From assembly GCA_036323355.1 (NCBI GenBank), contig AP028876.1, forward strand, positions 3,100,001 through 3,164,000: a DNA stretch of 64,000 nt, given 5' to 3'. Shown here in pieces: positions 695 through 13,949 of the stretch. Position 1 is the first letter of the stretch. Every line of letters begins with the position of its first letter. A program made the translations under genes and the position numbers. This DNA comes from Gottschalkiaceae bacterium SANA (GTDB taxonomy: Bacteria; Bacillota; Clostridia; Tissierellales; GPF-1). The notes beneath the pieces are model-generated. The model saw nothing but the letters and a program-made list of their open reading frames with translations, ran no database searches and was not told the DNA's origin.

Positions 695-1804
695 TTACAC
701 CGCCTTAATAGACTCATGAAGATGCTTGCCAAATACTTCCTCTAAGACCTCATCTGTTAGCTCTCCAAAGAGGGGACCATTGCTAAGTTGGTGCAAATCA
801 ATCGATCCACGCCAATAATTCGGTTCCACCAAAATTGGCGACCCATCCTTGGCAATGGCGATATCCCAAGACATCAATCGAAAATGGGCGATTCTTGCAT
901 GCATGGCGCAAAGCAAATCGAGGATGTCTTGAAAATTGGGGATGATACAGTCCTCAAATCGTCCCCCTTGGGGGTGACGATCATAGGCATAACCCTCTTT
1001 TGTATATGCAATCTCTTTTAATTGACCACTAGCCAATATACCTGCAGAGATTCCACCCATCTGCGAATTATCCACACGACTATCATTGATTCCCATACGC
1101 AAAACCGAAGATAAAATATGTACCTGACCATGTTGTAAAAAACTCATGACCCTTACGGTATTAACCGAAGCGGGGTGTAAGCGGGCCAGGCTTTCATGCT
1201 GGTCAATCAAGGCTTGAACAAGCAGATCCTTACCTGGCTCATCCAATTTCTTTTCTAAGGATTTTACACCTTCTTCTGACTTCCAAAACAAAATACCCGA
1301 TCCACCACCGGTGGAAAGCGTTGGTTTGATGATGATTGCTGGCTCATTGAGAATGAATTGAATGCTCCTTTCTCGGTCCAGAATACCATAGTTTTTATCC
1401 AGCCACTCTCCGTTTACCCGCCGAACAATGGTCCTTGGTTGAGCAAGCTCTGGAAACATCAAGGCAATGTAGTTCTTGTCCCGCAATCCATAAGAAAGAT
1501 TCATGCGGTTCATATAGGGAAGTATCACTGTAAAATACAGGTCATTTGGAATGAATTTTTTGTCTTCAACACCTGTTTGATTGGCGTAAAAACGGTGCCA
1601 GTTGATATCAAAGCGAGTGGTGAAAGCATTCCAATATGCCCAAACTTCTCTCTTATAAGCCAAGTCCATTGGCGGTATTCCTTTAAGGAATTTAACATGA
1701 AGTTTTCGATTAATTTTCAGCTTTAGAATCAATCTAGCAAGCCGATCTTTTAGCCGAAATCCTAGCTTGAATCCAATGTCATTGATTTCTTTTAAAATCG
1801 TCAT
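695..1804 (-). CDS. Sugar-transfer-associated ATP-grasp protein
   Basis: A 369-residue protein with the ATPgrasp_ST pattern. It has a basic N-terminal helix region (about residues 1-45), the nucleotide-binding glycine loop IKPTLSTGGGSG near residues 159-170, HPASVNTVR near 210-218, and a C-terminal metal-binding stretch DGSPILVEPNYW near 323-334. ATP-grasp enzymes join a carboxylate to an amine or similar nucleophile through an acyl-phosphate. This subfamily is associated with capsule or exopolysaccharide loci, but its substrate is not established. The gene lies directly upstream of a paralogue (1-692) with a 2-base gap, so this is a tandem duplication in one operon. A typical promoter was not found immediately upstream; a terminator-like hairpin stands at about 1950. 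Confidence 0.85.
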   Translation of the reverse strand: MTILKEINDIGFKLGFRLKDRLARLILKLKINRKLHVKFLKGIPPMDLAYKREVWAYWNAFTTRFDINWHRFYANQTGVEDKKFIPNDLYFTVILPYMNRMNLSYGLRDKNYIALMFPELAQPRTIVRRVNGEWLDKNYGILDRERSIQFILNEPAIIIKPTLSTGGGSGILFWKSEEGVKSLEKKLDEPGKDLLVQALIDQHESLARLHPASVNTVRVMSFLQHGQVHILSSVLRMGINDSRVDNSQMGGISAGILASGQLKEIAYTKEGYAYDRHPQGGRFEDCIIPNFQDILDLLCAMHARIAHFRLMSWDIAIAKDGSPILVEPNYWRGSIDLHQLSNGPLFGELTDEVLEEVFGKHLHESIKAV

Positions 1805-1941
1805 GGCGATCCCCTTCTGCTTTACACCACTTCAATGATTGACCATAAGGCCATTGTAAAGCCGACTAAACCTTCTATCCTTCTCCTCTAAGTTTACACG
1901 AAATGGGCTTGAATTTGCAGTTTTTTCAATATTTGGGGGAA

Positions 1942-1967
1942 ATAAAAAAGTGATCAAAAATGATCAC
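1942..1967 (-). terminator. Rho-independent terminator
   Basis: A 7-bp perfect stem, GTGATCA/TGATCAC, with a 4-base loop lies at 1950-1967. On the minus strand it is followed by a run of six T residues. It overlaps the stop codon of the tiny reading frame at 1964-2053 and would also end read-through from the operon that finishes at 2196. Confidence 0.75.
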
Positions 1968-2053
1968 CTTTTTACTTGCTCACTAAGTTGCTTCTGCAAT
2001 TGCTTCTTCCGCTCTTTGAATGAAATCATGCCCAGTAGATATGCACCTCTCAT
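1964..2053 (-). CDS. Candidate tiny basic protein (21-29 residues)
   Basis: A short open frame lies between a promoter-like site (2076-2130) and a terminator (1942-1967). From ATG 2053 it encodes 29 residues beginning MRGAYLLGMISFKER; from the internal ATG at 2029 it encodes 21 residues rich in Lys, Gln and Arg. A strong AAAAAGGAGG lies directly against the ATG at 2053, which is too close for normal initiation. A GTG seven bases further on opens a 6-codon frame whose stop TGA overlaps ATG 2029 (ATGA), so a coupled start at 2029 is possible. The product is unknown. The setting (own promoter, ribosome binding site, terminator right after the stop) resembles the small membrane-protein genes at 16273 and 16473. 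A small RNA is the alternative. Confidence 0.35.
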   Translation of the reverse strand: MRGAYLLGMISFKERKKQLQKQLSEQVKR

Positions 2054-2075
2054 CCTCCTTTTTCTTACTATATCT

Positions 2076-2130
2076 AGTATATCTCAGCGAAAAGAAACTT
2101 TCATCCACAAGATAGTTACGTTTTCTTACA
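2076..2130 (-). promoter_or_regulatory. Activator-type promoter with TTACA direct repeat (copy A)
   Basis: The minus strand shows a -10 box TATACT (2076-2081). A direct repeat TTACG/TTACA (plus-strand 2116-2120 and 2126-2130, 10-bp period) lies 34 bases further upstream. About 60 bp here match the region 14103-14160 closely, including the segment that reads TTTCATCCACAAGA on the plus strand. No good -35 box is present, as expected for a promoter that needs an OmpR/PhoB-type activator. Confidence 0.55.
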
Positions 2131-2195
2131 GGTTTTGAAGAATCAAACTAGATTCGAAAATCTTCCTGTTGAATTCTTTTGCGGTGATACTGCTG

Positions 2196-4391
2196 TTATT
2201 CATTGGCATAAAGCAGAAACTGGTTGCGCAAACTTCCAATCAATTCATCCAGGCCCACTTCTCCTTTAAAATACCGTTCTGCCCCGTCTATCATAAGGGT
2301 GATTTCCTTTTGTCCACCAACCAAAGCTCGACTGCTGTTTTGGAAATAAGGGATGATTTTTTCATAGTCTTGCTCAGTCGGATCCGCCATATCCAGCATG
2401 CGTTCACCATAAGCCGTTTCCAAAACCTGGATTAGGCCAAAGAACATTTTTTCATTGGTTTTTGCAACTGCTTTTTTTGCCAAGTCCAAGGTAATCGGCA
2501 CAGCCTGCATGCTAACCTTGGATTCCTGTATTTCTTCATCCAAGGCTAGGGCTTGCAGAAACTCCACCGCCGCCGCTTTGTTTTTGCTGTCCTTTACAAT
2601 ACCGAGCATGGATGCAGAAAAGGCATAGCTTTTGCTTTCGCTTGGGTAGGGAAGAATCCAATAATCCGCTGCCTCGAAACGGGCATGGGCACCTTTCAAC
2701 TCCATAATTTCCGCTTGATTGATGGGCTCCAAAGCTATGGTTCCCTTGGGTCCATAAAAGTCGTACTTGTCTTGATCCAGTTCTTCATTAACATAGGGTG
2801 CATGGCTGAGTTTATCCGCCAAAGCCACCAAACGCTTGTACAAGTCTGCCTTGAATACCCCTTGCTCATCCACCAAATCCTGCAAATTGTTAGCGACCAA
2901 ACCCTTTAGAATAACAGTGGCAGGCAGTTTTCTTAATGGTGCCACACCTGCTGCCACCAAGTCGTCCATCATGGTTTCAAAGTCTTCAATGGTTCTTTCC
3001 GAATCCATGTAGGCCTGGTAAATGGCGTCTGTCGCTTCTGTCTTCTCTGCATACAGACCCAGCATGCGAAGATCGATTGGCAAACCGATCAATTTTCCAT
3101 CCTGCTTGATCGCCTCCAATACTCCAGCATCTGCTGTTTTTAAGGCCTCCTGATCAATAACTGCGTTCAAATCTTGGAAAAATCCTTTTTCATTCAGTTT
3201 CTTTACAGGCAGGTCCTTAAAGAATACCAAATCAATCTGCTTGCCGCCTAGAATGTCGGTGTTGATTTTTTTCAGGTAGTCCTCATTGGTCAGTTCGTTA
3301 TGGGTTTTCAACTGCACCCGCAGTTCCGGGTGCTTAGCACTATAGTTATTGACATAAAAATCTGTTGTGAAATCTGACTCCTTCGTATAGATCACCAGGG
3401 TCGTCCTGTCTGCCAAATTGGGGTCTTCCCCCTCTTTTCTTGTCAAATAATAGCTTTGACTGAAATTTTCCATGCTTTCAAAATCCAAAATCGTCATATA
3501 TATTTTATCCCCTTGGAAGTACAAAGACTGGCAGGTTTTCATGCCCACACTCAGTTCATCGAAATGCTCTTTCATGTCTTCTCGATCAACCGCCTTTCCT
3601 TCCTTGTCATAATTCAACCGGGTCCATTCCTGGTTAACAAGCGTTAAGCCTTCCGGCGTTTTCTTTCCGCCCAGTATAGCGCCCTGAAAGTTTTCAATCA
3701 CGCGCTCTTCATTGCCTGTTTCCCAGTCATAGGCAATAACACTGCTCTGAAAGCCTTCCATGCTTATCAAATAGAGGGTCTGCCCGGTCACATCCAGCAC
3801 CTGACTTACATCCTCCCTCACCATTCGCTTGACTCCCGTTTCCAGGTTCCACGCCTCCAATTGACCCTCACCATTCAAGCGGACAATCTCATTGTCCATT
3901 TGGTAAAAGAAGGCGCCAGCACCCATGACCATACCCATGCCCTCAGCTTGATTTGCAAAGTCCTTCACTTCCACCGTATCAATATGGCTTCCATCAAAGC
4001 CGTATCGGTGAATCTGATTCTGATTATCCGACACATAATGGATCAAAAGGGTGTCGGTTCCATTGGAACCCAGCAGATCTACCATTCCCTCTTTTCCCGT
4101 TTCAAATGAATTTTTGCTCCCGTCTGGCGCATAGACCCATACGGTAGAACCCGAGTCTTGTTCAATCACTGCAATGGTACCGTCTTGCAGTTGGGTCATC
4201 ACCTTGACGCCTTGGCCCTCCAAGGCCGTCTTTTCATAGTAATAGCTTTCTCCCTTTTTGCTGTCCCTTGGTGGTTGACCACCGTCTTCAACGACAGACC
4301 TAGAACTGCTTCCCTTGCCCGTGCATCCTGTTATCAATAAGACGACAAGCAAGATCATTGCTATCCACCGTTTTTTACCATTTTTTTTCAT
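2196..4391 (-). CDS. Lipoprotein: propeller-like region joined to a solute-binding domain
   Basis: A 731-residue lipoprotein. The ATG at 4391 is chosen because AAGGAGG precedes it and it overlaps the upstream stop as ATGA; a longer frame would start before the signal sequence. After KKRWIAMILLVVLLITGC (lipobox Cys), about 300 residues carry repeated short beta-strand blocks such as 'LNGEGQLEAWNLETG', 'VIAYDWETGNEE' and 'WVYAPDGS', suggesting a beta-propeller-like sensor. From about residue 330 ('TTLVIYTKESDFTTDFY') to the end it resembles family-1 extracellular solute-binding proteins of sugar ABC importers. It is the last gene of the operon that starts at 8322 with two MalF/G-type permeases, so it is probably their substrate-binding partner. 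The ligand is unknown. The fusion to a second extracellular domain is unusual. Confidence 0.75.
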   Translation of the reverse strand: MKKNGKKRWIAMILLVVLLITGCTGKGSSSRSVVEDGGQPPRDSKKGESYYYEKTALEGQGVKVMTQLQDGTIAVIEQDSGSTVWVYAPDGSKNSFETGKEGMVDLLGSNGTDTLLIHYVSDNQNQIHRYGFDGSHIDTVEVKDFANQAEGMGMVMGAGAFFYQMDNEIVRLNGEGQLEAWNLETGVKRMVREDVSQVLDVTGQTLYLISMEGFQSSVIAYDWETGNEERVIENFQGAILGGKKTPEGLTLVNQEWTRLNYDKEGKAVDREDMKEHFDELSVGMKTCQSLYFQGDKIYMTILDFESMENFSQSYYLTRKEGEDPNLADRTTLVIYTKESDFTTDFYVNNYSAKHPELRVQLKTHNELTNEDYLKKINTDILGGKQIDLVFFKDLPVKKLNEKGFFQDLNAVIDQEALKTADAGVLEAIKQDGKLIGLPIDLRMLGLYAEKTEATDAIYQAYMDSERTIEDFETMMDDLVAAGVAPLRKLPATVILKGLVANNLQDLVDEQGVFKADLYKRLVALADKLSHAPYVNEELDQDKYDFYGPKGTIALEPINQAEIMELKGAHARFEAADYWILPYPSESKSYAFSASMLGIVKDSKNKAAAVEFLQALALDEEIQESKVSMQAVPITLDLAKKAVAKTNEKMFFGLIQVLETAYGERMLDMADPTEQDYEKIIPYFQNSSRALVGGQKEITLMIDGAERYFKGEVGLDELIGSLRNQFLLYANE

Positions 4392-5347
4392 CTCTTTTTC
4401 CTCCTTAAGTCTCGCTCTATCCAGCATAAGCCCAGCCATGCAGCAAACATGCCTGTTCCCTCTAAGCGCAACAGGGTCAGTTGATGCAAATATTCCTCAC
4501 TCATCATTCGCTGATGAGCAAAAAACAAGTGCTCTCTCAAGCCCCGAATCTGATCCAAGTACCAGCTTAAACTGACCAAATTTTCATTGATCACTTCCAA
4601 AGGCAATGACGCATACTCAATTTGCGTTGCCAATATTGCAGCCGCCAAAAACCGCCAAGCTGCTGGACTTATTTGCCTGTGTCTTATCTTAAAAATTCCA
4701 CTTGCCACCAATAGCAACAAGGCGCCCACACCAAATAAACTCATCTGCCGCCTGCTTCTTTCCTGCAACTCTCCATAGCTGTTGACCTGAACCTGGTCGC
4801 CCAGGCTAGAAAACTTATTTGCAAGCATAGCGGGACGATAATCTTCTCCCTCTTGATTTTGCCCAGACAAAAGCAGTAAAGTCGGTTTCTGCACCTTCAT
4901 TTTATCCACATTGGTCAACATCTTTACCGCTTCCTTTGTATCTCGCAATCGGGCTGAAACCACCCAAGGAAGAATGGTCCCCGGTCGGTCCATCTGTGCA
5001 GCCTGCTTTTCCACTTTGGGATGAAGGCTAACACTTTTGCTTTTGTCAAATTCCACTTGTCCCACTAGGCCAGAAGTTTGGGTTTCGAATTCACTTACCA
5101 AACCCTTAACCGCTCTGGAAAATATACTTTTATCTCCAACGGTTTTCCAGCTTGCCGCATCTGCCATCAAATAGGCTTGCGGTTTTACATCTTCTATTAT
5201 TCCTTCAACTTCCTGAAAACTTGCTCTTGCATTTTCCACATGAATGTCAAAAGATGGCGCTCGTGCAGACTTATTGCCCGCAGCGCTGGCAAAGCTGGCA
5301 ATGCCAATCAATGCAATGACCACTCCCTTTGCAAGCAATCCTTTCAT
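4388..5347 (-). CDS. Unknown exported membrane protein of the permease-HlyD operon
   Basis: A 319-residue protein that I do not recognise. It has a hydrophobic N-terminal signal or anchor (VVIALIGIASFASAA), then about 170 mostly soluble residues predicted outside the cell. Membrane segments follow (around LFGVGALLLLVASGIF, 'WRFLAAAILATQI' and 'GTGMFAAWLGLCWI'), and the tail is strongly basic (RDLRRKKR). Its start follows the stop of the HlyD-type gene with no gap, and its stop overlaps the start of the lipoprotein gene (ATGA). Tight translational coupling therefore ties it to both. It may be a structural partner of the adaptor or of the binding protein; that is inference from position only. 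Confidence 0.6.
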   Translation of the reverse strand: MKGLLAKGVVIALIGIASFASAAGNKSARAPSFDIHVENARASFQEVEGIIEDVKPQAYLMADAASWKTVGDKSIFSRAVKGLVSEFETQTSGLVGQVEFDKSKSVSLHPKVEKQAAQMDRPGTILPWVVSARLRDTKEAVKMLTNVDKMKVQKPTLLLLSGQNQEGEDYRPAMLANKFSSLGDQVQVNSYGELQERSRRQMSLFGVGALLLLVASGIFKIRHRQISPAAWRFLAAAILATQIEYASLPLEVINENLVSLSWYLDQIRGLREHLFFAHQRMMSEEYLHQLTLLRLEGTGMFAAWLGLCWIERDLRRKKR

Positions 5348-6616
5348 TTATTGTTCCTCCCGTTCCCAAGTCACCTTCATGTTTTCTGCCAAACTCTTGT
5401 CATTCAAGATTTTGGATACATAGGCGTCTTCTGGTGAAAGTCCGGATGTGATAACCACATTCTTGTCATCAGACTCGCCTGTAATCACCGTTTGCCTAAC
5501 GACCGTCACCTCTGTGCCAAATCCTTTTTTCTTTTCCTTTACCACCCATACATAGGCCTTGTTTTGATATTTTCCAACGGCTGATTTTGGAACCACAAGA
5601 TCGTACACCTTTGTTCGTTTGGCATGTTTCAGCTCCACTTGGGCCCCCGCTGGAATCTCCCCTGTTGCTACTTGTATTTTCAACAAGCGATTGTCTTGAT
5701 TTTCTGGGTCTGCACGTATGCTTAAAATCTCTCCCTGCAAACTGCCATTCACACTGGCGTGCTTCACGTTCAGGGAATCACCGACTTTAAAGTGCTCTGC
5801 CTTCTTTTTTTCAATGGAATAAACGAGCTGTGACCATTCGCTTTTCTTGGCAATCTCGTACAAAAGCTGTCCTTTTTGAATCTCCCCACCCACTGTCATA
5901 GAAAACCGGGCCAAGACGCCGGTTTCCTTGGCTCTCACTTGACCATTTTCCTTTATAATCTCTTTCAGCCCTTGCAATTCCTCTTGAATTTCTTTGGATT
6001 TTTCTTCTGCTTCCCGTCGGCTGGCAAGCACTTGGGCTTCCCTTTCCTGCAAGGAGGCCCCCACTTCCATCTCTTCTGCCCGCTTTTTATCCCGCTCCAA
6101 ACGTGCGGTTTCCACGGCCTGTTTGGAAACGGTCCCAAGTTGATACAATTTTTCCTGTGTCACCAGCTTTTGTTCGGCTTCTGCCAACTCGTGGGCATAC
6201 GCCTGCTTCTTCTCAGCCCGCTCCTCTTGAAAAAAACCCGCCTCCCTCTTTTGGGCGGCTTGAAGTTTCAAGTCCCATTCACTTTGACTTTTCTCTAGCT
6301 TGGCAAGCTGCTTTTTCAGTTCTTCAAGATCCAAACGGAAAAGGACGGTTTCCGGTGTCACTTCCTCTCCCTCGGCCATCTTCACCTGGCTAACCCTACC
6401 GCCAAAATCTGAAAACACTGCATCTCGGTCTTTCCATTCCAGCTGTTCATTTCCTTGCAACTCGATACTCAAAGCGGTCTTTGCAGCATGTACGGCTTGC
6501 ACCTGCGGACGCGTATATTCGTTTAAGAAAGATGAAAACAAAGTGAATCCCCACAGGGCCAAAAAGAAGATCACCAGATTTTTCACCGCAAACCATTGTT
6601 TCCACATTTTTTTCAT
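5348..6616 (-). CDS. HlyD/RND-type membrane fusion (adaptor) protein
   Basis: A 422-residue adaptor. It has one N-terminal membrane anchor (LVIFFLALWGFTLFSSFL), then a lipoyl-like half ('GGRVSQVKMAEGEEVTPETVLFRL', about residues 72-95). A long charged coiled-coil hairpin spans about residues 95-230, followed by the second lipoyl half ('ETGVLARFSMTVGGEIQKGQLLY') and beta-barrel segments to the end. Such proteins normally bridge an inner-membrane exporter to the outside; in Gram-positives they accompany MacB-type or bacteriocin exporters. Here the neighbours are MalF/MalG-type import permeases (6629-8322) and a solute-binding lipoprotein, with no export pump in the operon, which is odd. GGGGG precedes the ATG at 6616; a second ATG three codons later is possible. 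Confidence 0.85.
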   Translation of the reverse strand: MKKMWKQWFAVKNLVIFFLALWGFTLFSSFLNEYTRPQVQAVHAAKTALSIELQGNEQLEWKDRDAVFSDFGGRVSQVKMAEGEEVTPETVLFRLDLEELKKQLAKLEKSQSEWDLKLQAAQKREAGFFQEERAEKKQAYAHELAEAEQKLVTQEKLYQLGTVSKQAVETARLERDKKRAEEMEVGASLQEREAQVLASRREAEEKSKEIQEELQGLKEIIKENGQVRAKETGVLARFSMTVGGEIQKGQLLYEIAKKSEWSQLVYSIEKKKAEHFKVGDSLNVKHASVNGSLQGEILSIRADPENQDNRLLKIQVATGEIPAGAQVELKHAKRTKVYDLVVPKSAVGKYQNKAYVWVVKEKKKGFGTEVTVVRQTVITGESDDKNVVITSGLSPEDAYVSKILNDKSLAENMKVTWEREEQ

Positions 6617-6628
6617 TGGATATTCCCC

Positions 6629-7477
6629 CTATTTCATGGCCAGGTTCTTCAATCCTGACTCCAAATCTTTTCTCGATGCAAAATACAAAAGCAATGCCGG
6701 AATCAAATACAAGACCGACGCCCCAAAAGCTATGTTAAAATCCTTGCCAGCCGAAGTGGCCAGCACCATGGACAAGGGAAACTTGGATGCATCCGACAAC
6801 ATAATCAATGGTTGTTCCACCATATTCCAGTAATCAATAAAAGACAAAACAGCCAATGAAAAAACAAATGGTTTGGCAATGGGCATGACCACCTGCCAAA
6901 AGATGCGAAGTTCGCCTGCTCCATCCACCCTAGCTGCCTCAATCAATTCATCAGGTATTTCACGCAGATACTGCTTCATGTAAAATACGGCAAAAGCGTG
7001 AAATATTCCTGGCAAGTATATGGCCGCTGCATGATCATAGGTTCCCAGTCGAATTGCCATAATAAAATTGGGCACCAGGGTCACCTGAAAGGGGATGAGC
7101 ATAGCCACCATAAAAAGATAAAAAAGCGGATCTCGAAATCGGAAGCGAAACTTGGCAAACCCATAGGCAGTTAAGGTGCCAACTACCATCTGGCCCAATA
7201 CAATCGGCAAAACCAAGCCCAAGGAATTCCAATACATTTTCAAGAAATCCAAACGGTTAATCAGTACCGTAAAATACTGGCGAAGCGAAAAGCTCTTTGG
7301 AATCAGATGCCAGAGGCTAATTCCCTTGCCACTCTCTAAAATTTGCTTAAGACTATCAAGTTCGGTTTTGCCCATGACACTCATCAAAACCGTAATAAGC
7401 AGGGGCAAGGCAAAGGCAAAAGCCAAAATCACTCCTGTGCAGTTGATCATTACTCTTATGCTGTTCCTCTGTTTCAC
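6629..7477 (-). CDS. Carbohydrate-type ABC permease, MalG/UgpE-like
   Basis: A 282-residue inner-membrane permease with six predicted helices. It carries the EAA loop typical of binding-protein-dependent importers (EAARVDGAGELRIFWQVVMP, about residues 190-209), which docks on the ABC ATPase. It starts with GTG at 7477 and overlaps the upstream permease stop (GTGA), so the two subunits are translationally coupled and should form a heterodimer. No ATPase gene is present in the operon. Sugar importers of Firmicutes often share one MsmK-type ATPase encoded elsewhere, which is the simplest explanation. The substrate cannot be read from sequence. Confidence 0.9.
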   Translation of the reverse strand: MKQRNSIRVMINCTGVILAFAFALPLLITVLMSVMGKTELDSLKQILESGKGISLWHLIPKSFSLRQYFTVLINRLDFLKMYWNSLGLVLPIVLGQMVVGTLTAYGFAKFRFRFRDPLFYLFMVAMLIPFQVTLVPNFIMAIRLGTYDHAAAIYLPGIFHAFAVFYMKQYLREIPDELIEAARVDGAGELRIFWQVVMPIAKPFVFSLAVLSFIDYWNMVEQPLIMLSDASKFPLSMVLATSAGKDFNIAFGASVLYLIPALLLYFASRKDLESGLKNLAMK

Positions 7478-8322
7478 ACCCCTTCCCCCTTTCGATCAAT
7501 TGCCAGCATTGCTCCAACAAAGAGAAGGACACCAATCAATACCGTCAATGCGGCCACCGATAATTTCTGATAGTCCAACACCAAAAATAAATTGTTCATA
7601 TAATGCTGCAATGAATAAATGCTTTGATCCGGATAGCTGCCCAAGAGCAGATAAATTTCTCGAAAGGCCTTAAAGGCATTCAACACCGAAATCATGATTA
7701 CAAAGATCAAGGTGCCTCGAATCGAGGGCAGGGTGATCAAGCGAAACTGTTGAATCTGATTTGCCCCATCAATGGATGCAGCTTCATACATAGCACGATT
7801 GACATTTTCCAGCGCTGCGGTAAGAATAATGACGTTGTAACCGATATTCTTCCATAGAAAAAGCAACAACACCGTCACCAAAGCCATTTTAGAATGATAA
7901 AATTCCACCGGACCCGACCCAAAATGCCGAAAGATGGTATTCAATACCCCGTCGTAGCGGAAGAACAAGTCAAATACCATCATGACCGAAGCTGTTGGAA
8001 TGATCATGGGAGAAAACAAAACCGACTGCACCACCGTTGGATACCAAGTCATGCGCTGCACCAGCAGAGAAATCAGCAATGAGATTACAGTAATCGATAT
8101 CACAGCCAAACTTACAAAAACCATTGTGTTGCGAAATGCCAACTGGAAAACGACATTGCTTAAAACCTCGGCAATTTTGCCAAATCCCCATTCGCCCGAT
8201 TCATTTTGCAGCGCATACATCACCATCCGTCCCATGGGAATCAAGTAAAAAACGCCCAAACCCAATAGACCTGGTGCAATCCACCCCCATCCACTAGGTA
8301 TTCTATTCCCTCTTCTTTCCAT
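7474..8322 (-). CDS. Carbohydrate-type ABC permease, MalF/UgpA-like
   Basis: A 282-residue permease with six predicted membrane segments and the EAA loop EAASIDGANQIQQFRLITLP (about residues 180-199). It is the first gene of a five-gene minus-strand operon: MalF-like, MalG-like, HlyD-type adaptor, unknown membrane protein, fused solute-binding lipoprotein. AAGGAGGAAGTC precedes the ATG at 8322. A TATACT -10 box and a TTACA-type direct repeat lie upstream (8346-8398), so the operon is probably controlled by the response regulator encoded at 10629-11285. Confidence 0.9.
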   Translation of the reverse strand: MERRGNRIPSGWGWIAPGLLGLGVFYLIPMGRMVMYALQNESGEWGFGKIAEVLSNVVFQLAFRNTMVFVSLAVISITVISLLISLLVQRMTWYPTVVQSVLFSPMIIPTASVMMVFDLFFRYDGVLNTIFRHFGSGPVEFYHSKMALVTVLLLFLWKNIGYNVIILTAALENVNRAMYEAASIDGANQIQQFRLITLPSIRGTLIFVIMISVLNAFKAFREIYLLLGSYPDQSIYSLQHYMNNLFLVLDYQKLSVAALTVLIGVLLFVGAMLAIDRKGEGV

Positions 8323-8345: not shown

Positions 8346-8398
8346 AGTATAAAACTGCGAAATATGAAAGTCGTGTTTAACTTGTAAAAAAGATGTGA
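8346..8398 (-). promoter_or_regulatory. Permease operon promoter with direct-repeat operator (copy F)
   Basis: The minus strand carries a TATACT box (8346-8351). TTACA (complement of 8383-8387) and TCACA (complement of 8394-8398) lie 31 bases further upstream with an 11-bp period. The pattern matches the sites at 2116, 14143, 15775 and 11384. Confidence 0.45.
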
Positions 8399-8424
8399 AA
8401 AAAACGAGGCGTTTTCACGCCTCG
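8397..8424 (-). terminator. Rho-independent terminator of the regulator operon
   Basis: A 7-bp stem CGAGGCG/CGCCTCG (8405-8411 with 8418-8424) is followed on the minus strand by a run of eight T residues (8397-8404). It lies directly after the stop of the lipoprotein gene at 8436 and separates the regulator operon from the permease operon. Confidence 0.9.
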
Positions 8425-8435
8425 CTTTTCATTCC

Positions 8436-9209
8436 TTATTCAATTTCAATTTTCTCGGCAAATCGTTCCGTTTCATTTTGTACAACCATAGCCATATAAC
8501 CACTATGAAAACTAATAAAGGCTGTTGTGTCGTTCCGCATTACCATCAAGACTTGATTCTCCGGGTGATCGGGGGCTTCATACCTAAACCAAAACCATTC
8601 CGTTTGGTCTTCTGGAACCACATAGCGGAACTGGGCTTTCAACAGGGGTTGCACATCTCCCAGCAAGTGCTTCTCCACAACATAAGCGCGTGCCTTTTCT
8701 TCCATCATCTTCCGATCCATCGGTTCGTCCACCAAGCCTTCTTCCCAAAATGGATTGCTTATCTCCAATATCCGTTGGGTGTTTCCTTCAAACTTCCCGC
8801 TGATTGTCACCTGCCTAGCCGGATCTATTTTCGCCACACGATAATAGCCCTGGTCCAAAGCAGCAGGATATTTTTCCTTGATTGCTGCCACCCATTCATC
8901 ATCCAGTCGTTCCCATTCCAGCTCCACTTGTTTGGCATTTTGATAGGCAATGGATACCATATACTCTTCTTCATTCTTGGGTACCGTTAAAAAGTTTTGA
9001 AATGCCCACTCCGCCTTGCCCAAAAGATTCTCATCATATGTCGTGCCAAATTCTACAAGTCCAATTTCTACTGGCAAGGTGGCTTGCACCATAGAAGATA
9101 CCTTCACATGATCCACCAGCACCTCTCCTTTTTTTACTTTTTGATCGGATTCGCAAGCGCTGCATAGCAGTGCGCCAACCACCAAAGCAACTAAGAGTAT
9201 TCGCTTCAT
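8436..9209 (-). CDS. Lipoprotein of a two-component operon
   Basis: A 257-residue lipoprotein with signal MKRILLVALVVGALLCSAC, lipobox LCSAC. The mature part is rich in acidic residues and beta strands, for example 'WFWFRYEAPDHPENQVLMVM' near the end. I recognise no named family. Its ATG overlaps the histidine kinase stop (ATGA), so it is made together with the sensor. In Gram-positives such membrane-anchored partners often tune or sense for the kinase; that role is inference from position. A strong terminator follows. Confidence 0.7.
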   Translation of the reverse strand: MKRILLVALVVGALLCSACESDQKVKKGEVLVDHVKVSSMVQATLPVEIGLVEFGTTYDENLLGKAEWAFQNFLTVPKNEEEYMVSIAYQNAKQVELEWERLDDEWVAAIKEKYPAALDQGYYRVAKIDPARQVTISGKFEGNTQRILEISNPFWEEGLVDEPMDRKMMEEKARAYVVEKHLLGDVQPLLKAQFRYVVPEDQTEWFWFRYEAPDHPENQVLMVMRNDTTAFISFHSGYMAMVVQNETERFAEKIEIE

Positions 9210-10627
9210 CTCTGCACCTCCTTGAAAATCATGGTGACAGATGTTCCTTCATTCAATTGACTTTTGATTTCAAACCTACCCTGGTGTATTTCCAAAACCC
9301 GCTGGCAAATGGACAAGCCCAGCCCTGCACCATGATGCTTGCGGGTACGGGCTTTATCCACCATATAAAAGGGTTCCACAATCCGCGCTATTTCCGTCTC
9401 TGCCATGCCTATGCCATTGTCTTGCACCCGAATCTGCATTTCGTGATTTGTGAAATGCAGGAAGACAGCAATTTGTCCCCTCTCTTCAACCGCCTTTACA
9501 GCATTATCTAAAATATTTTTCAACAACACTTTAAAATAATCCGCTTCCACAATCCAAAAGCCTGGCTCAAGATCCGCTTCTATATGAATATCCTTGTCTT
9601 GAAATCGCGGCACCATTGCCTGCAAAACCTCTTTAATCAGCCCATCCATAGATGTGTTTTCAAATGCAAAGTTGCCTTTGCGCAGCAGAATCAGGTCCAT
9701 TAATTTCATAGACAATCTTTCTAAATGGCGCCCTTCCTCCCAAATCACCTGCAAAGCCTCGGTACGAGTTTCTTCATCTGTTTTTGCATTGCGAAGATAC
9801 TCGGCATAGCCGATCACCGACGTTAGGGGTGTTTTCATTTCATGGGTAAAGCTTTCAATAAAGGCTTCCTTTTCACGATTCGCCGCTTCTAAACGAATCG
9901 TATTGTCTTGGATGGAAGCAGCCATCTGATTCAAGTGATGACCGAGCAGAGCAAACTCATACCCATTTTGTTCCGGTAGCCGCCTCTCCAAATTTCCATC
10001 CGTCATTTCTTGAGTCATTTGCACCATGGCTTTCAAGGGTTTTGCAATAGACTGACTGATCAAGAGCATGAAAAGGGAAAAAAGCAATAGAGCCAAAACC
10101 TCCGACTGAAAAAACAACCTCCACTGATGGTCAATCATCGTGTAAAAATCAGTGATATCCCGCGCATATGTTAAGTAAAACCATTCACCATTTAGTTGAA
10201 TCTGACTGGATACAAAAAGCAAACTGCGGTCTCCGTGATCACGGATAAGAGTTCGCCTCTCATCCCTAGAAGAAAAATTCAACTCTGGGCGTTCCTTTGG
10301 CCATTCCATGTTAAAATTTGATGCAACCTGACTTCCGTCCTGATCAAGAATCTCCACATAGACTTCTGGCAGCGTTTCAACTAAAATCTTCAAGTACCCT
10401 TGAATCAAATCACGATTAAGTATAGACAAGTCAATCCCCATGCCCGAAATCATAGGAATCTGTTCCCACAAACCATAGACAATCGTTGCTTCTTCATTAC
10501 GGCTGCGTTCCACTTCCCGCCTTAGTCCCGCATTTTTACTCTCCTCCAGGTTCACATAACCCGTTGCATTAAAAATCAGCAGGAAGAGCAAGACTGTAAA
10601 AAGATAAATTTTTAAAGCCAGTTTCAT
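9206..10627 (-). CDS. Sensor histidine kinase with extracellular domain and HAMP
   Basis: A 473-residue membrane sensor kinase. Layout: first membrane helix (LKIYLFTVLLFLLIFNATG), an extracellular domain of about 130 residues, second helix (SEVLALLLFSLFMLLISQSI) and HAMP ('KPLKAMVQMTQEMTDGN'). The HisKA phospho-acceptor is ESFTHEMKTPLTSVIGYAEY, and the ATPase has N box NILDNAVKAV, G1 DNGIGM and G2 GAGLGLSI. The ATG at 10627 is preferred (GGGAGG six bases upstream) over a start 24 bases earlier inside the regulator gene. It begins one base after the response-regulator stop, so the two form a cognate pair. The stimulus is unknown, possibly envelope-related given the neighbours. Confidence 0.92.
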   Translation of the reverse strand: MKLALKIYLFTVLLFLLIFNATGYVNLEESKNAGLRREVERSRNEEATIVYGLWEQIPMISGMGIDLSILNRDLIQGYLKILVETLPEVYVEILDQDGSQVASNFNMEWPKERPELNFSSRDERRTLIRDHGDRSLLFVSSQIQLNGEWFYLTYARDITDFYTMIDHQWRLFFQSEVLALLLFSLFMLLISQSIAKPLKAMVQMTQEMTDGNLERRLPEQNGYEFALLGHHLNQMAASIQDNTIRLEAANREKEAFIESFTHEMKTPLTSVIGYAEYLRNAKTDEETRTEALQVIWEEGRHLERLSMKLMDLILLRKGNFAFENTSMDGLIKEVLQAMVPRFQDKDIHIEADLEPGFWIVEADYFKVLLKNILDNAVKAVEERGQIAVFLHFTNHEMQIRVQDNGIGMAETEIARIVEPFYMVDKARTRKHHGAGLGLSICQRVLEIHQGRFEIKSQLNEGTSVTMIFKEVQR

Positions 10628-10628
10628 C

Positions 10629-11285
10629 TTATCCCTCCCAACGATAACCAATCTTATAGACCGTTTTTATCACATCACCCAAGTCCAGTTTTTTGCGAAG
10701 CTCCTTCACATGCACATCTACGGTGCGGGTCCCCCCTGCAAAATCCATGTCCCAAACCCGATCCAGAATCTGTTCGCGTGACAAGGCAATATTCTTATTT
10801 CGAAGGAACATGCAAAGCAACTCATATTCCTTTAGTGTCAAATCAATCACCTTGCCATTCTTTCTCACACAGCGTTCATCTTCTTGCACTTCAATGTGAC
10901 CAAACCGCATCACAGGCTCAATCTTCCCCGCCCTGCGCAGCACCGATTCTACCCGTGCCAAAAGCTCAATACCTTCAAAGGGTTTAATCATGTAATCATC
11001 AGCCCCCAACTTCAAGCCTTTAACCCGATCCAACACATTGACCTTAGCCGTTAAAAAAATTACGGGCACTCCAGAACCGCGCACCTCTTCCATCACTTGG
11101 AAACCATCGATGCCCGGCAGCATAACATCCAAAAGAACCAGGTCATATCTATCCTTTTTTATCTCCTCAACCGCAGCCAAACCGTCAAAAACGACCGAAG
11201 TCTCATACCCACTTAAATGAAGGTTCATTTCAATCAATTTGGAAATATTCACTTCGTCCTCAACAATCAAAATTCGTTTGCCCAT
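10629..11285 (-). CDS. OmpR/PhoB-family response regulator
   Basis: A 218-residue regulator. The receiver domain (1-120) has the acidic pocket 'ILIVEDE', phospho-acceptor Asp in DLVLLDVMLPG, and the conserved Thr/Lys in FLTAK and KPFEG. A winged-helix DNA-binding domain covers about 125-218 ('LTLKEYELLCMFLRN', 'RTVDVHVKELRKKL', 'YKIGYRW'). It is first in the operon regulator, kinase, lipoprotein. Members of this family bind direct repeats spaced about 10-11 bp, and such repeats lie upstream of its own gene and of four other sites in the first 16 kb, so it is the likely master of that local regulon. Confidence 0.93.
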   Translation of the reverse strand: MGKRILIVEDEVNISKLIEMNLHLSGYETSVVFDGLAAVEEIKKDRYDLVLLDVMLPGIDGFQVMEEVRGSGVPVIFLTAKVNVLDRVKGLKLGADDYMIKPFEGIELLARVESVLRRAGKIEPVMRFGHIEVQEDERCVRKNGKVIDLTLKEYELLCMFLRNKNIALSREQILDRVWDMDFAGGTRTVDVHVKELRKKLDLGDVIKTVYKIGYRWEG

Positions 11286-11304
11286 GGCGGTCTCCTTTTT
11301 TCTT

Positions 11305-11399
11305 ATTGTACCATAATCAAATCAGCCAACTTCCCGCTTCTTTTTCAAACTATCACACCATCATAGAGAAGTTGCGTAAGACTTGTAAGGAAGTTGTAA
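11305..11399 (-). promoter_or_regulatory. Promoter and direct-repeat operator of the regulator operon (copy E)
   Basis: The minus strand shows TACAAT (11305-11310) near the start, preceded by an AAGGAG ribosome binding site. Three TTAC(A/G) half-sites (complements of 11375-11379, 11384-11388 and 11395-11399) lie further upstream, with 9- and 11-bp periods. This suggests autoregulation by the encoded response regulator. Confidence 0.45.
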
Positions 11400-11436
11400 A
11401 ATCTTCAAACCACCAAGAGAAAGGAAAATCGCCTCA

Positions 11437-11470
11437 ACAAAAAAATCTATCCCAAAAGGATAGATTTTTT
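11437..11470 (-). terminator. Rho-independent terminator
   Basis: Stem AATCTATCC/GGATAGATT (11444-11452 with 11458-11466) with a 5-base loop is flanked by A and T runs on both sides. It lies 20 bases after the stop of the 819-residue surface protein and can act in both directions. Confidence 0.85.
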
Positions 11471-11489
11471 CCGCTTCGATAACGCTTTG

Positions 11490-13949
11490 CTACTTCTGTA
11501 CAGATTTACGATGTACAAGTCGTGTTATTCCATCAATCTGTTCAATAACAAAGAAATCAATGGTGTAGGTGGTCTGCCCTGCTTCATCCGTTTGCAGGTG
11601 GATCTCGAATGTCGAGTCAGTTCCAGCTGGTATGCCTTCAAGCCAGTCACCTTCAAAGCTTGTCATTGGAATATTGATTTCATGACCTTGATAGTTCAAG
11701 AGTAAATCTCTGGCTCCTTTACCCATTCTAGCAATCAAATCGGCATAAGGAATTTGTAGGCGTACATCCTTTGCTTTTGATCGAAGAGGCACTCGATAAT
11801 CGATCAAGCCATTTTCATCTTTTTGAATGATCAAACCAAAGCACAAATCATCGAACCGTGCAAGAGTCTGTCCTCCAAATGTGCGCTCCGCAACAAGATG
11901 ATGAAATCGACCGGGCACTATTTTGGCTTCTTTGTTCACGCTAACCGTATAGGTTTTTGCCAACCCATCTTCCGCTGTTACAACAATGGGGATGATTGTT
12001 GACTCTTCAAGTAACTCAATCGGCATGCTGACCGTGCCCGATGTTACAGCCAGCCCATTAACCGTCATGCTTGCTTTCTCATCTGCAAGGGTTCCTGTTA
12101 CTGTAAGGCTGGTTACACTTCTTGCCACCCTTACCGCATAACTGGTTTCTCCGGCATCAAAGCCTGGGGTCAAAGAACCTTGGCTAACCACTAATCCACT
12201 TAGGTCATTATTGCTGCTTAGGGGTGTCGGTTCTGCTTTGGTTACGGTCAGTGTATAGGTCTTATGATCCGTTTGGTACTCTGCCGTTACAACAATTTCT
12301 ATCTTGGTCTCTTTTTCAACCAGTGCAATAACTTCACTAGCACTTTTCCCATTTACCGACACGCTTGCGTTGATATCATCCACAAGTCCCGCCACGGTAA
12401 TGGCCCGCGTCTCATGGGCTACCGTAGTCGCATAGACTATTGTTTCTGGATCAAAAATTGGGTCTAGTGTGCCAAGACTCGTGGTCAAGCCACTCAATTT
12501 TACAGGCTCTGGCATCTCCGTAACAACCTTAATTGTATAACTCTTTCGGTCTCCAACCTGAGGGGTTACATCAAAGCGAAACAAGAGATCATCTGGATCT
12601 GGATGAAATTCAATTTGTATGGTTCCGTCTTGGGCCATCATGATTCCACCAATCATTGCGGCCCTCATGTTCCCTTTAATATCGGCGACCCTCACGATTG
12701 TACCCTCGCTTGCTGGTGCTGTGGTCACTTTGACTACTCTAGGAAGGGCTACTCTTCCTGAATTAGGATCAAATTCAATTTGTGGATTGGCCACAATTAA
12801 GTACTCGGTTTGATCCGGGCTAAATGCCGGATACAAAGTGCCTCCGCTAACGACTAGGCTGCCCAAGTTGTTTTTCTCAACAACGGGTGCTGGGGCTGCT
12901 TTGGTTACGGTCAAGGTATAGGTTTGGTCGCTTCCATCTTCCGCTGTTACAAGGATTGGAATAATGGTAGCAGATTCCTCGTTCAATCTAACCATTTTAC
13001 TGGCCGGTCCGCCATCAATCGACACATTCGCTTTGCTATCCGCTGGTGTTGCTGTCACGCTAATTCCCTCAGTTCCGCTGGCTACTGTTGCTGTATAGGT
13101 CTTTGTATCCGCATGGAATTCGGGAGATAGGGTTCCAGGAAGTGCCCCTTCGCTGAAGGTCAATGCACTTAAGTCCTTATTGCTGCTCAATACGACCGGA
13201 GGAGCAGCTTGTCTAAATACGGAAATAGAATAGGTGCTAATGGTTTGCCCCAATACATCAATAGTCAGTCGATTAAATCCAACGTTCAATCCTATCGGAT
13301 CAGCCCCTCCAGAACGCATATTCAAAGGCATCGGCATGGTAGGCGCGTAAATATAAACATCTAAACTAGGTTCTATGGCATTTGCAATTACGCTAATCAT
13401 ACTCACTTCATTTCCTACAACTACCGCATAATTTAAACATTCTGGGTTGAATACAGGTGTCAGTGATCCATTTCTTATTCGTAAGTTGCCCAATAGACTC
13501 ATAGGGTCTATGGTCTGATTCTCACTATTATTCACCTTTAGGGTATAAGTTTTTGTACTTCTATCCTCCGCCGTCACATCGATATCAAGTGAAGCTTCTC
13601 TAGGTAGAGGTGGAATCAATCCTTGATTAACGCCCAGCTGCACGAACTCGGGTGGACCGGTGAATGATATGGCCGCATGGGTATCTTCCGTCGTTCCCGT
13701 CACTGTAATTGGCAAGTGAGAGCCATCACCCACAACCACATACTCGGTTTGATCCGGGCTGAAAGCCGGAAGCAAAAACCCGTTTGCAATGGTCAAATTA
13801 CTCAAATTACTGTTGTCGCTAAGGCCTAAAGTGTCAATTTCACCCTCTGTGTTCAAGGGATCGGCAAATACCGGAAAACTGACTGCCTGCAACAAGAGCA
13901 AAAAGCAAAGTACATATACAATCCTTCCCATTCCTTTTTCTTTTCTCAT
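11490..13949 (-). CDS. Secreted protein with six cadherin-like beta-sandwich repeats
   Basis: An 819-residue exported protein with signal peptide MGRIVYVLCFLLLLQAVSFPVFA. Six repeats of about 90-110 residues follow. Each opens with 'LxxLxxxxGxLxPxFxPxxxxYxxxV' and closes with a 'TYTLTVTK'-like strand, the pattern of the Cadherin-like beta-sandwich domain (PF12733). The last 130 residues form a different domain that is also found at the end of the lipoprotein at 14192-15727 ('VPLRSKAKDVRLQIPYADL', then 'RLVHRKSV' at the very end). No LPXTG anchor or S-layer domain is visible, so it is either released or held through the C-terminal domain. AGGAGG precedes the ATG by six bases. A role in the cell envelope or adhesion is inference. 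Confidence 0.85.
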   Translation of the reverse strand: MRKEKGMGRIVYVLCFLLLLQAVSFPVFADPLNTEGEIDTLGLSDNSNLSNLTIANGFLLPAFSPDQTEYVVVGDGSHLPITVTGTTEDTHAAISFTGPPEFVQLGVNQGLIPPLPREASLDIDVTAEDRSTKTYTLKVNNSENQTIDPMSLLGNLRIRNGSLTPVFNPECLNYAVVVGNEVSMISVIANAIEPSLDVYIYAPTMPMPLNMRSGGADPIGLNVGFNRLTIDVLGQTISTYSISVFRQAAPPVVLSSNKDLSALTFSEGALPGTLSPEFHADTKTYTATVASGTEGISVTATPADSKANVSIDGGPASKMVRLNEESATIIPILVTAEDGSDQTYTLTVTKAAPAPVVEKNNLGSLVVSGGTLYPAFSPDQTEYLIVANPQIEFDPNSGRVALPRVVKVTTAPASEGTIVRVADIKGNMRAAMIGGIMMAQDGTIQIEFHPDPDDLLFRFDVTPQVGDRKSYTIKVVTEMPEPVKLSGLTTSLGTLDPIFDPETIVYATTVAHETRAITVAGLVDDINASVSVNGKSASEVIALVEKETKIEIVVTAEYQTDHKTYTLTVTKAEPTPLSSNNDLSGLVVSQGSLTPGFDAGETSYAVRVARSVTSLTVTGTLADEKASMTVNGLAVTSGTVSMPIELLEESTIIPIVVTAEDGLAKTYTVSVNKEAKIVPGRFHHLVAERTFGGQTLARFDDLCFGLIIQKDENGLIDYRVPLRSKAKDVRLQIPYADLIARMGKGARDLLLNYQGHEINIPMTSFEGDWLEGIPAGTDSTFEIHLQTDEAGQTTYTIDFFVIEQIDGITRLVHRKSVQK

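Follow-up and report, generated by a model that had tools for sequence, protein, structure and literature searches.

The question addressed here is why permeases of the import kind and an adaptor of the export kind should be encoded side by side in one operon. The operon lies on the minus strand (8322–2196) of a stretch of 64,000 nucleotides, hereafter the window, which covers bases 3,100,001–3,164,000 of one 3.49-Mb contig (AP028876.1) of Gottschalkiaceae bacterium SANA. The answer that we consider probable is that the operon encodes a conserved hybrid ATP-binding cassette (ABC) transporter, namely a type I importer with outer subunits of the MacA/MacB type, of a kind that seems to occur widely among Gram-positive bacteria.

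Five genes were located in the operon, all of them named in the original prediction as one coupled unit. A MalF-type permease (7474–8322) is followed by a MalG-type permease (6629–7477), the reading frame of which shares a 4-nt overlap with that of MalF. A Pfam scan placed a BPD_transp_1 domain in both (E values 3.8e-12 and 3.5e-18, respectively), and the two proteins contain EAASIDGA and EAARVDGA, which we take to be EAA-type motifs. The third gene encodes a MacA/HlyD-type adaptor (5348–6616; HlyD_3, E value 2.9e-6, 28.4 bits against a cut-off of 22.2), in which an N-terminal hydrophobic segment, lipoyl-like parts, a charged hairpin-like stretch and a C-terminal membrane-proximal part succeed one another; these names, including ‘membrane-proximal’ for the C-terminal end, follow MacA by analogy. 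A 319-residue membrane protein (4388–5347) comes fourth, in a position referred to below as the slot. The last gene, for a 731-residue lipoprotein (2196–4391), overlaps it at its start (ATGA) and is preceded by AAGGAGG; the lipoprotein combines an N-terminal beta-rich, propeller-like part with a solute-binding domain in its C-terminal half (SBP_bac_1, E value 4.2e-9, 37.3 bits against a cut-off of 26). No ATPase gene was found within 2196–8322, and no MacB-type ATPase domain was found in the operon, either fused to the slot protein or beside it.

A first survey of 41 genomes, including that of the window, showed adaptor and solute-binding protein matches on shared contigs in several of them. 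On these contigs MalF, MalG, adaptor and membrane protein stood together in five loci of four genomes, three of these loci also having an ATPase gene. A species-level genome collection searched with a MalF alignment gave at least 545 relatives, and the 80 most similar to the window MalF were taken as named loci (60 Clostridia-type and 20 Paenibacillaceae records). The proteins behind the MalF profile came from loci with an adaptor, and no fewer than two of the named loci (L070 and L110) share their contigs with profile rows (L019 and L051). All 80 loci contain MalG and 79 contain the adaptor, which is present in 59 of the 60 Clostridia-type loci and in each of the 20 Paenibacillaceae loci. The sole miss was L081, the contig of which stops inside MalG (a frame started too early and cut by the contig end, 286 bits). 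A solute-binding protein was close by in 70 of the 80, and MalF and MalG formed a single 618-residue frame in L141. The window MalF shares 30–39% identity with 17 MalF proteins of the system, and local profiles gave 278–458 bits for MalF and MalG of the system loci, whereas an ordinary MalF–MalG pair (L054) reached 81 and 89; judged by sequence, the two permeases are a distinct subfamily.

Linkage was also counted in a class sample of 291 genomes, 27 of which had a MalF of at least 350 bits. In 25 of these an adaptor match shares the contig with MalF, separated from it by no more than 2,944 bases; in G119 and G179 the two matches are on separate contigs. The MalF profile itself drew on 13 of the 27 genomes; among the other 14, an adaptor was near MalF in 12. 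Five further genomes of the class had weaker MalF matches (238–343 bits); G280 and G146 have adaptors, G134 has a 122-residue adaptor remnant, and G052 and G073 were left out of the locus reading. Locus L169 has a 122-residue remnant as its only adaptor sequence. Nine genomes matched in a phylum sample of 398, and among the loci read there (G832 and the weaker G828 excluded) the full set with an ATPase was found in families f118 (G664), f166 (G674 and G724) and f98 (G861, two loci). Altogether, this block of genes was seen in more than 100 loci, a few of which are the same contig fetched twice and two of which (L016 and L018) are close relatives. The mixture that had been predicted is a real unit, and by gene order the set is a recurrent, conserved module; a chance neighbourhood was rejected on this linkage. 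A class-wide search of the 291 genomes was also made with the adaptor, and 20 regions were fetched from it. An HlyD gene standing apart from the permeases would have counted against the prediction; in the loci judged, adaptors of the system type stood next to the permeases, L069 excepted, where the adaptor is at a contig edge with the permeases not in view; most weaker adaptor matches fell outside the loci read. In three of the fetched regions (L063, L066 and L067) adaptors stand beside genes recognized by eye as RND-pump-like.

A second, diverged system was found in the same genome at 2,258,153–2,264,683. Alongside MalF and MalG it encodes a slot protein scoring above the MacB_PCD cut-off and a lipoprotein without a Pfam match. 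Two further genes are adaptor-like by the local profile (75 and 77 bits) but gave no Pfam adaptor match, and no ATPase was seen beside the system. Both congeners have a MalF match scoring like that of this second system and none scoring like that of the window. In a plasmid collection, a 37%-identical MalF was noted at 254778–255491 of OY725868.1, a 305-kb Subdoligranulum variabile record.

The adaptors form a group of their own. In a tree of 26 adaptors the window's adaptor and 19 others from the system fell on one side of a branch (support 99/97), the remaining six being three RND-linked and three MacA-like adaptors, two of the latter from the window's genome. Among solved structures, the adaptor profile picks out adaptors of RND and MacA systems. 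Fusion of neighbouring genes, for which a search had been proposed, was found in L157, L160 and L161, which come from three genomes in as many families; there MalG and adaptor are a single open frame. MalG is followed in these frames by the N-terminal transmembrane segment of the adaptor and then by its C-terminal part, so that positions 4–55 and 341–426 of the 428-position profile are covered and the middle is missing. Free adaptors of 240 and 230 residues in L120 and L135 match positions 4–60 and 264–423. Other loci have adaptor frames of up to 943 residues; among the lengths counted are those of L091 and L149, truncated where their contigs stop, and for some frames the start may have been set too far upstream. 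What is conserved is therefore the two ends. Neither the fusions nor the adaptors of L120 and L135 have the middle, and for this reason the adaptor as an obligatory trans-wall tube was rejected. The MalG–adaptor region of L159 is interrupted, leaving short frames.

That adaptor and MalG can be one protein speaks for direct contact between them. In known pumps the membrane-proximal domain of the adaptor contacts the outer domain of the transporter, and in EmrA, the partner of which is without an outer domain, the membrane-proximal domain is missing (PMC5985334). That the membrane-proximal part is kept in the present system would, by analogy, fit a contact with the slot protein or with MalG; Paenibacillaceae adaptors keep it although these loci are without a slot protein.

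The operon was predicted to contain no export pump. This stands as far as a MacB-type ATPase is concerned, but the slot proteins of most relatives tested have a MacB core domain, so that part of an export-pump family is present without its motor. MacB_PCD was above the Pfam cut-off in the slot proteins of 12 of 15 relatives tested (L016–L020, L118, L137, L157, L162, L163, L165 and L168), below it in L064 (19.3 bits against 27) and without a match in L153 and L155; the core-domain proteins of L160, L161 and most other loci were judged by local profile and not by Pfam. The best solved matches of the slot-family profile were YknZ (5f9q) and MacB (3ftj and 5lil). A slot protein was matched in 57 of the 60 loci outside Paenibacillaceae, and the contigs of the three misses (L081, L091 and L149) end at, within or just after the adaptor. 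The window's 319-residue protein is assigned to the slot by its position and by its predicted topology, TM1–outer domain–TM2–TM3–TM4 (TM, transmembrane helix), in a model of low confidence (pLDDT 58).

The lipoprotein was modelled from a 50-row alignment (pLDDT 71.9), and its solute-binding part gave a Z score of 27.4 to CbpC of Clostridium thermocellum (7x0o) in a fold search that covered mainly residues 282–732. SBP_bac_1 was matched at an E value of 0.1 or better by 49 of the 50 aligned lipoproteins. The first 300 residues had been described as a separate propeller-like sensor. In the AlphaFold model nine beta strands are predicted at 51–142 (mostly 72–88 pLDDT), followed by low confidence at about 150–288. 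The first part of the N-terminal region is thus predicted to be ordered, and the disorder that would have spoken against the prediction was not seen there. The window protein matches PQQ_2 weakly (E value 0.009, below the cut-off), as do two others of the 50, and Beta-prop_ACSF4, SGL and Reg_prop were matched by two, two and one, respectively, which may overlap. A propeller-like N-terminus is suggested by these matches and by the beta-rich model. It is dispensable to the system, since the solute-binding proteins of Paenibacillaceae are of ordinary size (430–510 residues, two fragments in L141 excepted).

The lack of an ATPase, also predicted, holds for the window operon and fails as a defining trait, as which it was rejected, because relatives encode a MalK-type ATPase in the operon. 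Such an ATPase (at least 450 bits on a local profile) was found in L016, L020, L050, L076, L088, L096, L150, L151, L153–L157, L159–L161, L164–L167 and L170, and the operon ATPase of L018 carries ABC_tran, OB_MalK and TOBE_2. From this distribution the absence of an operon ATPase is lineage-specific. The best match to the L018 ATPase in the window's genome (59% identity) is an orphan MalK-type gene at 1,449,181, which adjoins an ftsEX-like pair (by eye) and is not beside permeases. In a tree it was placed among the operon ATPases, with 63% identity to that of L157, and apart from two other MalK-like ATPases of the genome. It is plausible from this placement that the orphan gene supplies a shared MsmK-type ATPase; that such ATPases can be shared is an established idea, and PMC7658222 deals with multitask ATPases.

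Upstream of malF, and also on the minus strand, lie the genes of a two-component system. An OmpR/PhoB-type response regulator (10629–11285; Response_reg and Trans_reg_C) and a histidine kinase (9206–10651; HAMP, HisKA and HATPase_c, with about 190 residues preceding HAMP at 197–249) are followed by a 257-residue lipoprotein (8436–9209). Against the kinases that accompany this transporter in four loci of Paenibacillus (L072, L082, L115 and L136) the window kinase scores 303–315 bits, versus 114 for the next, and the regulator scores 275–280 bits to those of L072, L082 and L115 versus 173 for the next. In the latter three loci the third gene encodes a lipoprotein of similar size (254–259 residues) in the same place; the window protein has no Pfam match and no detectable sequence match to these three. 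A terminator-like hairpin with a T run was seen in the sequence at 8400–8424 on the minus strand (the program lists the hairpin on the plus strand only), between the 257-residue lipoprotein and the five genes from malF to the 731-residue lipoprotein. Because of it, there are probably two transcription units with a common operator sequence. Exact copies of this sequence, TTTYACAWCTTYYTTACAAGT, stand before malF (8380–8400, minus strand) and before the response regulator (11381–11401, minus strand).

The 21-bp pattern was derived from these two sites, and 0.04 sites would be expected in the window at up to three mismatches. In the whole genome only the two sites fit with fewer than three mismatches; three sites with three mismatches equal the control level. 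The operator core stands before genes for solute-binding proteins or MalF in the four Paenibacillus loci with the close kinase relative. Exact cores numbered seven in five of 81 sequences, all with this two-component system, and none occurred in the other 76; with up to two mismatches there were 15 sites, against four and zero for two control patterns. One of the L136 sites (5119) is inside a frame the start of which was probably called too early. The placing of the operon under the adjacent two-component system is supported by the operator and its recurrence, although the two units are probably transcribed separately. From these sequence comparisons it is supported that the two-component system belongs with the transporter. 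Directly upstream of its unit, an 819-residue protein with five cadherin-like beta-sandwich matches is encoded at 11490–13949.

The transporter that we propose would work as follows. The membrane core would be a MalF–MalG pair like those of type I importers for carbohydrate uptake. Its driving ATPase, of the MalK/MsmK type, is operon-encoded in some lineages and would be supplied in trans in this genome. On the outer face the MacA-type adaptor would be held against MalG by its single transmembrane helix and membrane-proximal part and, in most Clostridia, would be joined there by the MacB-type core-domain membrane protein, which is without a motor of its own. The lipid-anchored solute-binding protein, often with its propeller-like extra domain, would deliver a ligand for import, bulky and probably an oligosaccharide or a glycopeptide, and the adaptor and core-domain subunits may dock the binding protein or relay conformational changes of MalFG. 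Binding at the common operator would let the two-component system and its lipoprotein turn on themselves and the transporter. Import is argued for by the core, the motor and the solute-binding protein, and a permanent outer module by the adaptor and the core-domain protein. We tentatively go further, to a proposal that we rate as somewhat short of probable: that this is a new architectural class of ABC machine. Its type I importer core would be joined permanently to an outer module of type VII (MacA/MacB-like) that has no motor, and a single MalK-type ATPase would power substrate passage through MalFG as well as mechanotransmission outside the membrane. The fusion proteins suggest that the essential coupling piece would be the adaptor's transmembrane helix together with its membrane-proximal part, both positioned on MalG.

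Several results weigh against the hybrid importer. The window's 319-residue protein had no Pfam match and no significant profile match to the slot family or MacB_PCD. Its global score to the slot family (5.75) was exceeded by two of 25 block-shuffled controls, its local score was 19.57 versus 16.09 for the reversed protein, and a search of 249 genomes of the order returned the protein itself and seven chance-level matches. A slot protein was matched in one of the 20 Paenibacillaceae loci; the other 19 show no core-domain protein, which is therefore not essential everywhere. Several branches in the adaptor tree are long, that of the window's adaptor included, so that inner placements are unsure. 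The orphan ATPase sits at an open fork (87/91) of a tree built without outside MsmK references. Finally, neighbour clustering gave no consistent catabolic enzymes near the loci, which is unusual for a sugar importer; the neighbours were mostly housekeeping genes, antisense artefacts and, in six loci, radical SAM proteins, with no consistent pathway.

A sensing role is also conceivable, given that the switch is private and that catabolic neighbours are missing. In such a signal-relay complex, ligand on the 731-residue lipoprotein would alter the assembly of MalFG, adaptor and core-domain protein, and the change would be reported to the two-component system by the 257-residue lipoprotein. BceAB-type transporters act as flux sensors and offer a parallel. 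A dedicated two-component system with its own operator fits this role, as do the regulator and kinase found within 8 kb in 17 of the 20 Paenibacillaceae loci and a D-Ala-D-Ala carboxypeptidase gene adjoining the system in L165. MacB-type core domains work by mechanotransmission in known relatives (PMC5985334). In the other 60 loci, however, a regulator was within 8 kb in six and a kinase in five (profiles of three rows each, which may miss some), so that signalling through an adjacent pair is not the usual case, and many lineages keep a MalK-type ATPase and a solute-binding protein. We regard a sensing complex in place of a nutrient importer as unlikely. The L165 gene (5238–6215; Peptidase_S11, E value 4.7e-48) is placed between the two-component genes and malF and hints at a cell-wall context; a gene at 9415–10485 in L170 has a similar-looking start.

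An unusual exporter, in which transport by the MalFG core would be outward and the adaptor would guide the product across the wall, the role of MacA in MacAB pumps, seems very unlikely. The structural kin of the adaptor among RND and MacA proteins and the great length of some adaptors would suit it, and upstream of the system a radical SAM sequence and an ABC protein of 588–592 residues occur in L159 and L161, and an ABC protein of 578 residues in L157. These separate ABC proteins could, however, carry out any export themselves. The frequent solute-binding protein and the importer-type motifs of the permeases speak against outward transport, and the shortened adaptors of the fusions, L120 and L135 show that a conduit is not the conserved part. 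The radical SAM protein of L159 has 728 residues (1800–3986), and that of L161 is in two short frames (2440–3646); together, the ABC and radical SAM genes upstream in L157, L159 and L161 suggest a link to peptide maturation. That the recognizable MalFG and solute-binding set is an ordinary carbohydrate importer, with adaptor and membrane protein as unrelated passengers, has almost no standing against the linkage across Clostridia and Paenibacillaceae, the single adaptor group and the MalG–adaptor fusions.

The hybrid importer shares features with three known kinds of system. With CUT1 importers (MalFGK2, MsmEFGK and UgpABCE) it has in common MalF/MalG-type permeases and a family-1 sugar-type solute-binding protein. 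A MalK-type ATPase, which in CUT1 importers can be shared in trans, is encoded in operons of relatives and in this genome would be supplied by the orphan candidate. It differs from them in the constant MacA-type adaptor, in the frequent MacB-core-domain protein and extra N-terminal domain of the solute-binding protein, in the OmpR-type two-component system of some lineages and in that no linked catabolic genes were found. MacAB and its Gram-positive counterpart YknXYZ (type VII ABC) have the same kind of adaptor and, as in relatives of the window's system, the MacB/YknZ-kind core domain, whereas the present system has a MalF/MalG membrane core, a solute-binding protein and no MacB-type ATPase. 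Two conventional-looking MacAB operons are also present in the window's genome (L048, 5705–8877, and L049, 7488–10639), with an OEP/TolC-like product near each (1713–3014 and 10617–11951, respectively), all identified by eye. BceAB–BceRS likewise places a dedicated OmpR-family two-component system beside an ABC transporter with outer domains. Its permease is of the FtsX type, its ATPase of the Bce type and its kinase without an outer sensor domain, whereas here a MalFG core is found with a solute-binding protein and a separate adaptor, and the kinase is not of the intramembrane type.

An ATP-grasp protein associated with sugar transfer and a second gene of similar appearance beside it (695–1804 of the window and 14614–15693 of L047) adjoin genes resembling polysaccharide biosynthesis.

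A description of this combination was not found in the open-licence literature of PubMed Central (PMC), and publication elsewhere is possible. ABC importers and MacA/MacB-type machines are currently treated as separate architectures, which a widespread system of this kind would join. The natural fusions point to the indispensable part of the adaptor, and with such a system the coupling of an outer module to an importer core would become testable. The private two-component system and its operator would provide a direct route for seeking the inducing signal. For the Firmicutes of gut, rumen and soil, the system would give a common frame to genes that are otherwise annotated piecemeal as sugar permeases or efflux adaptors.

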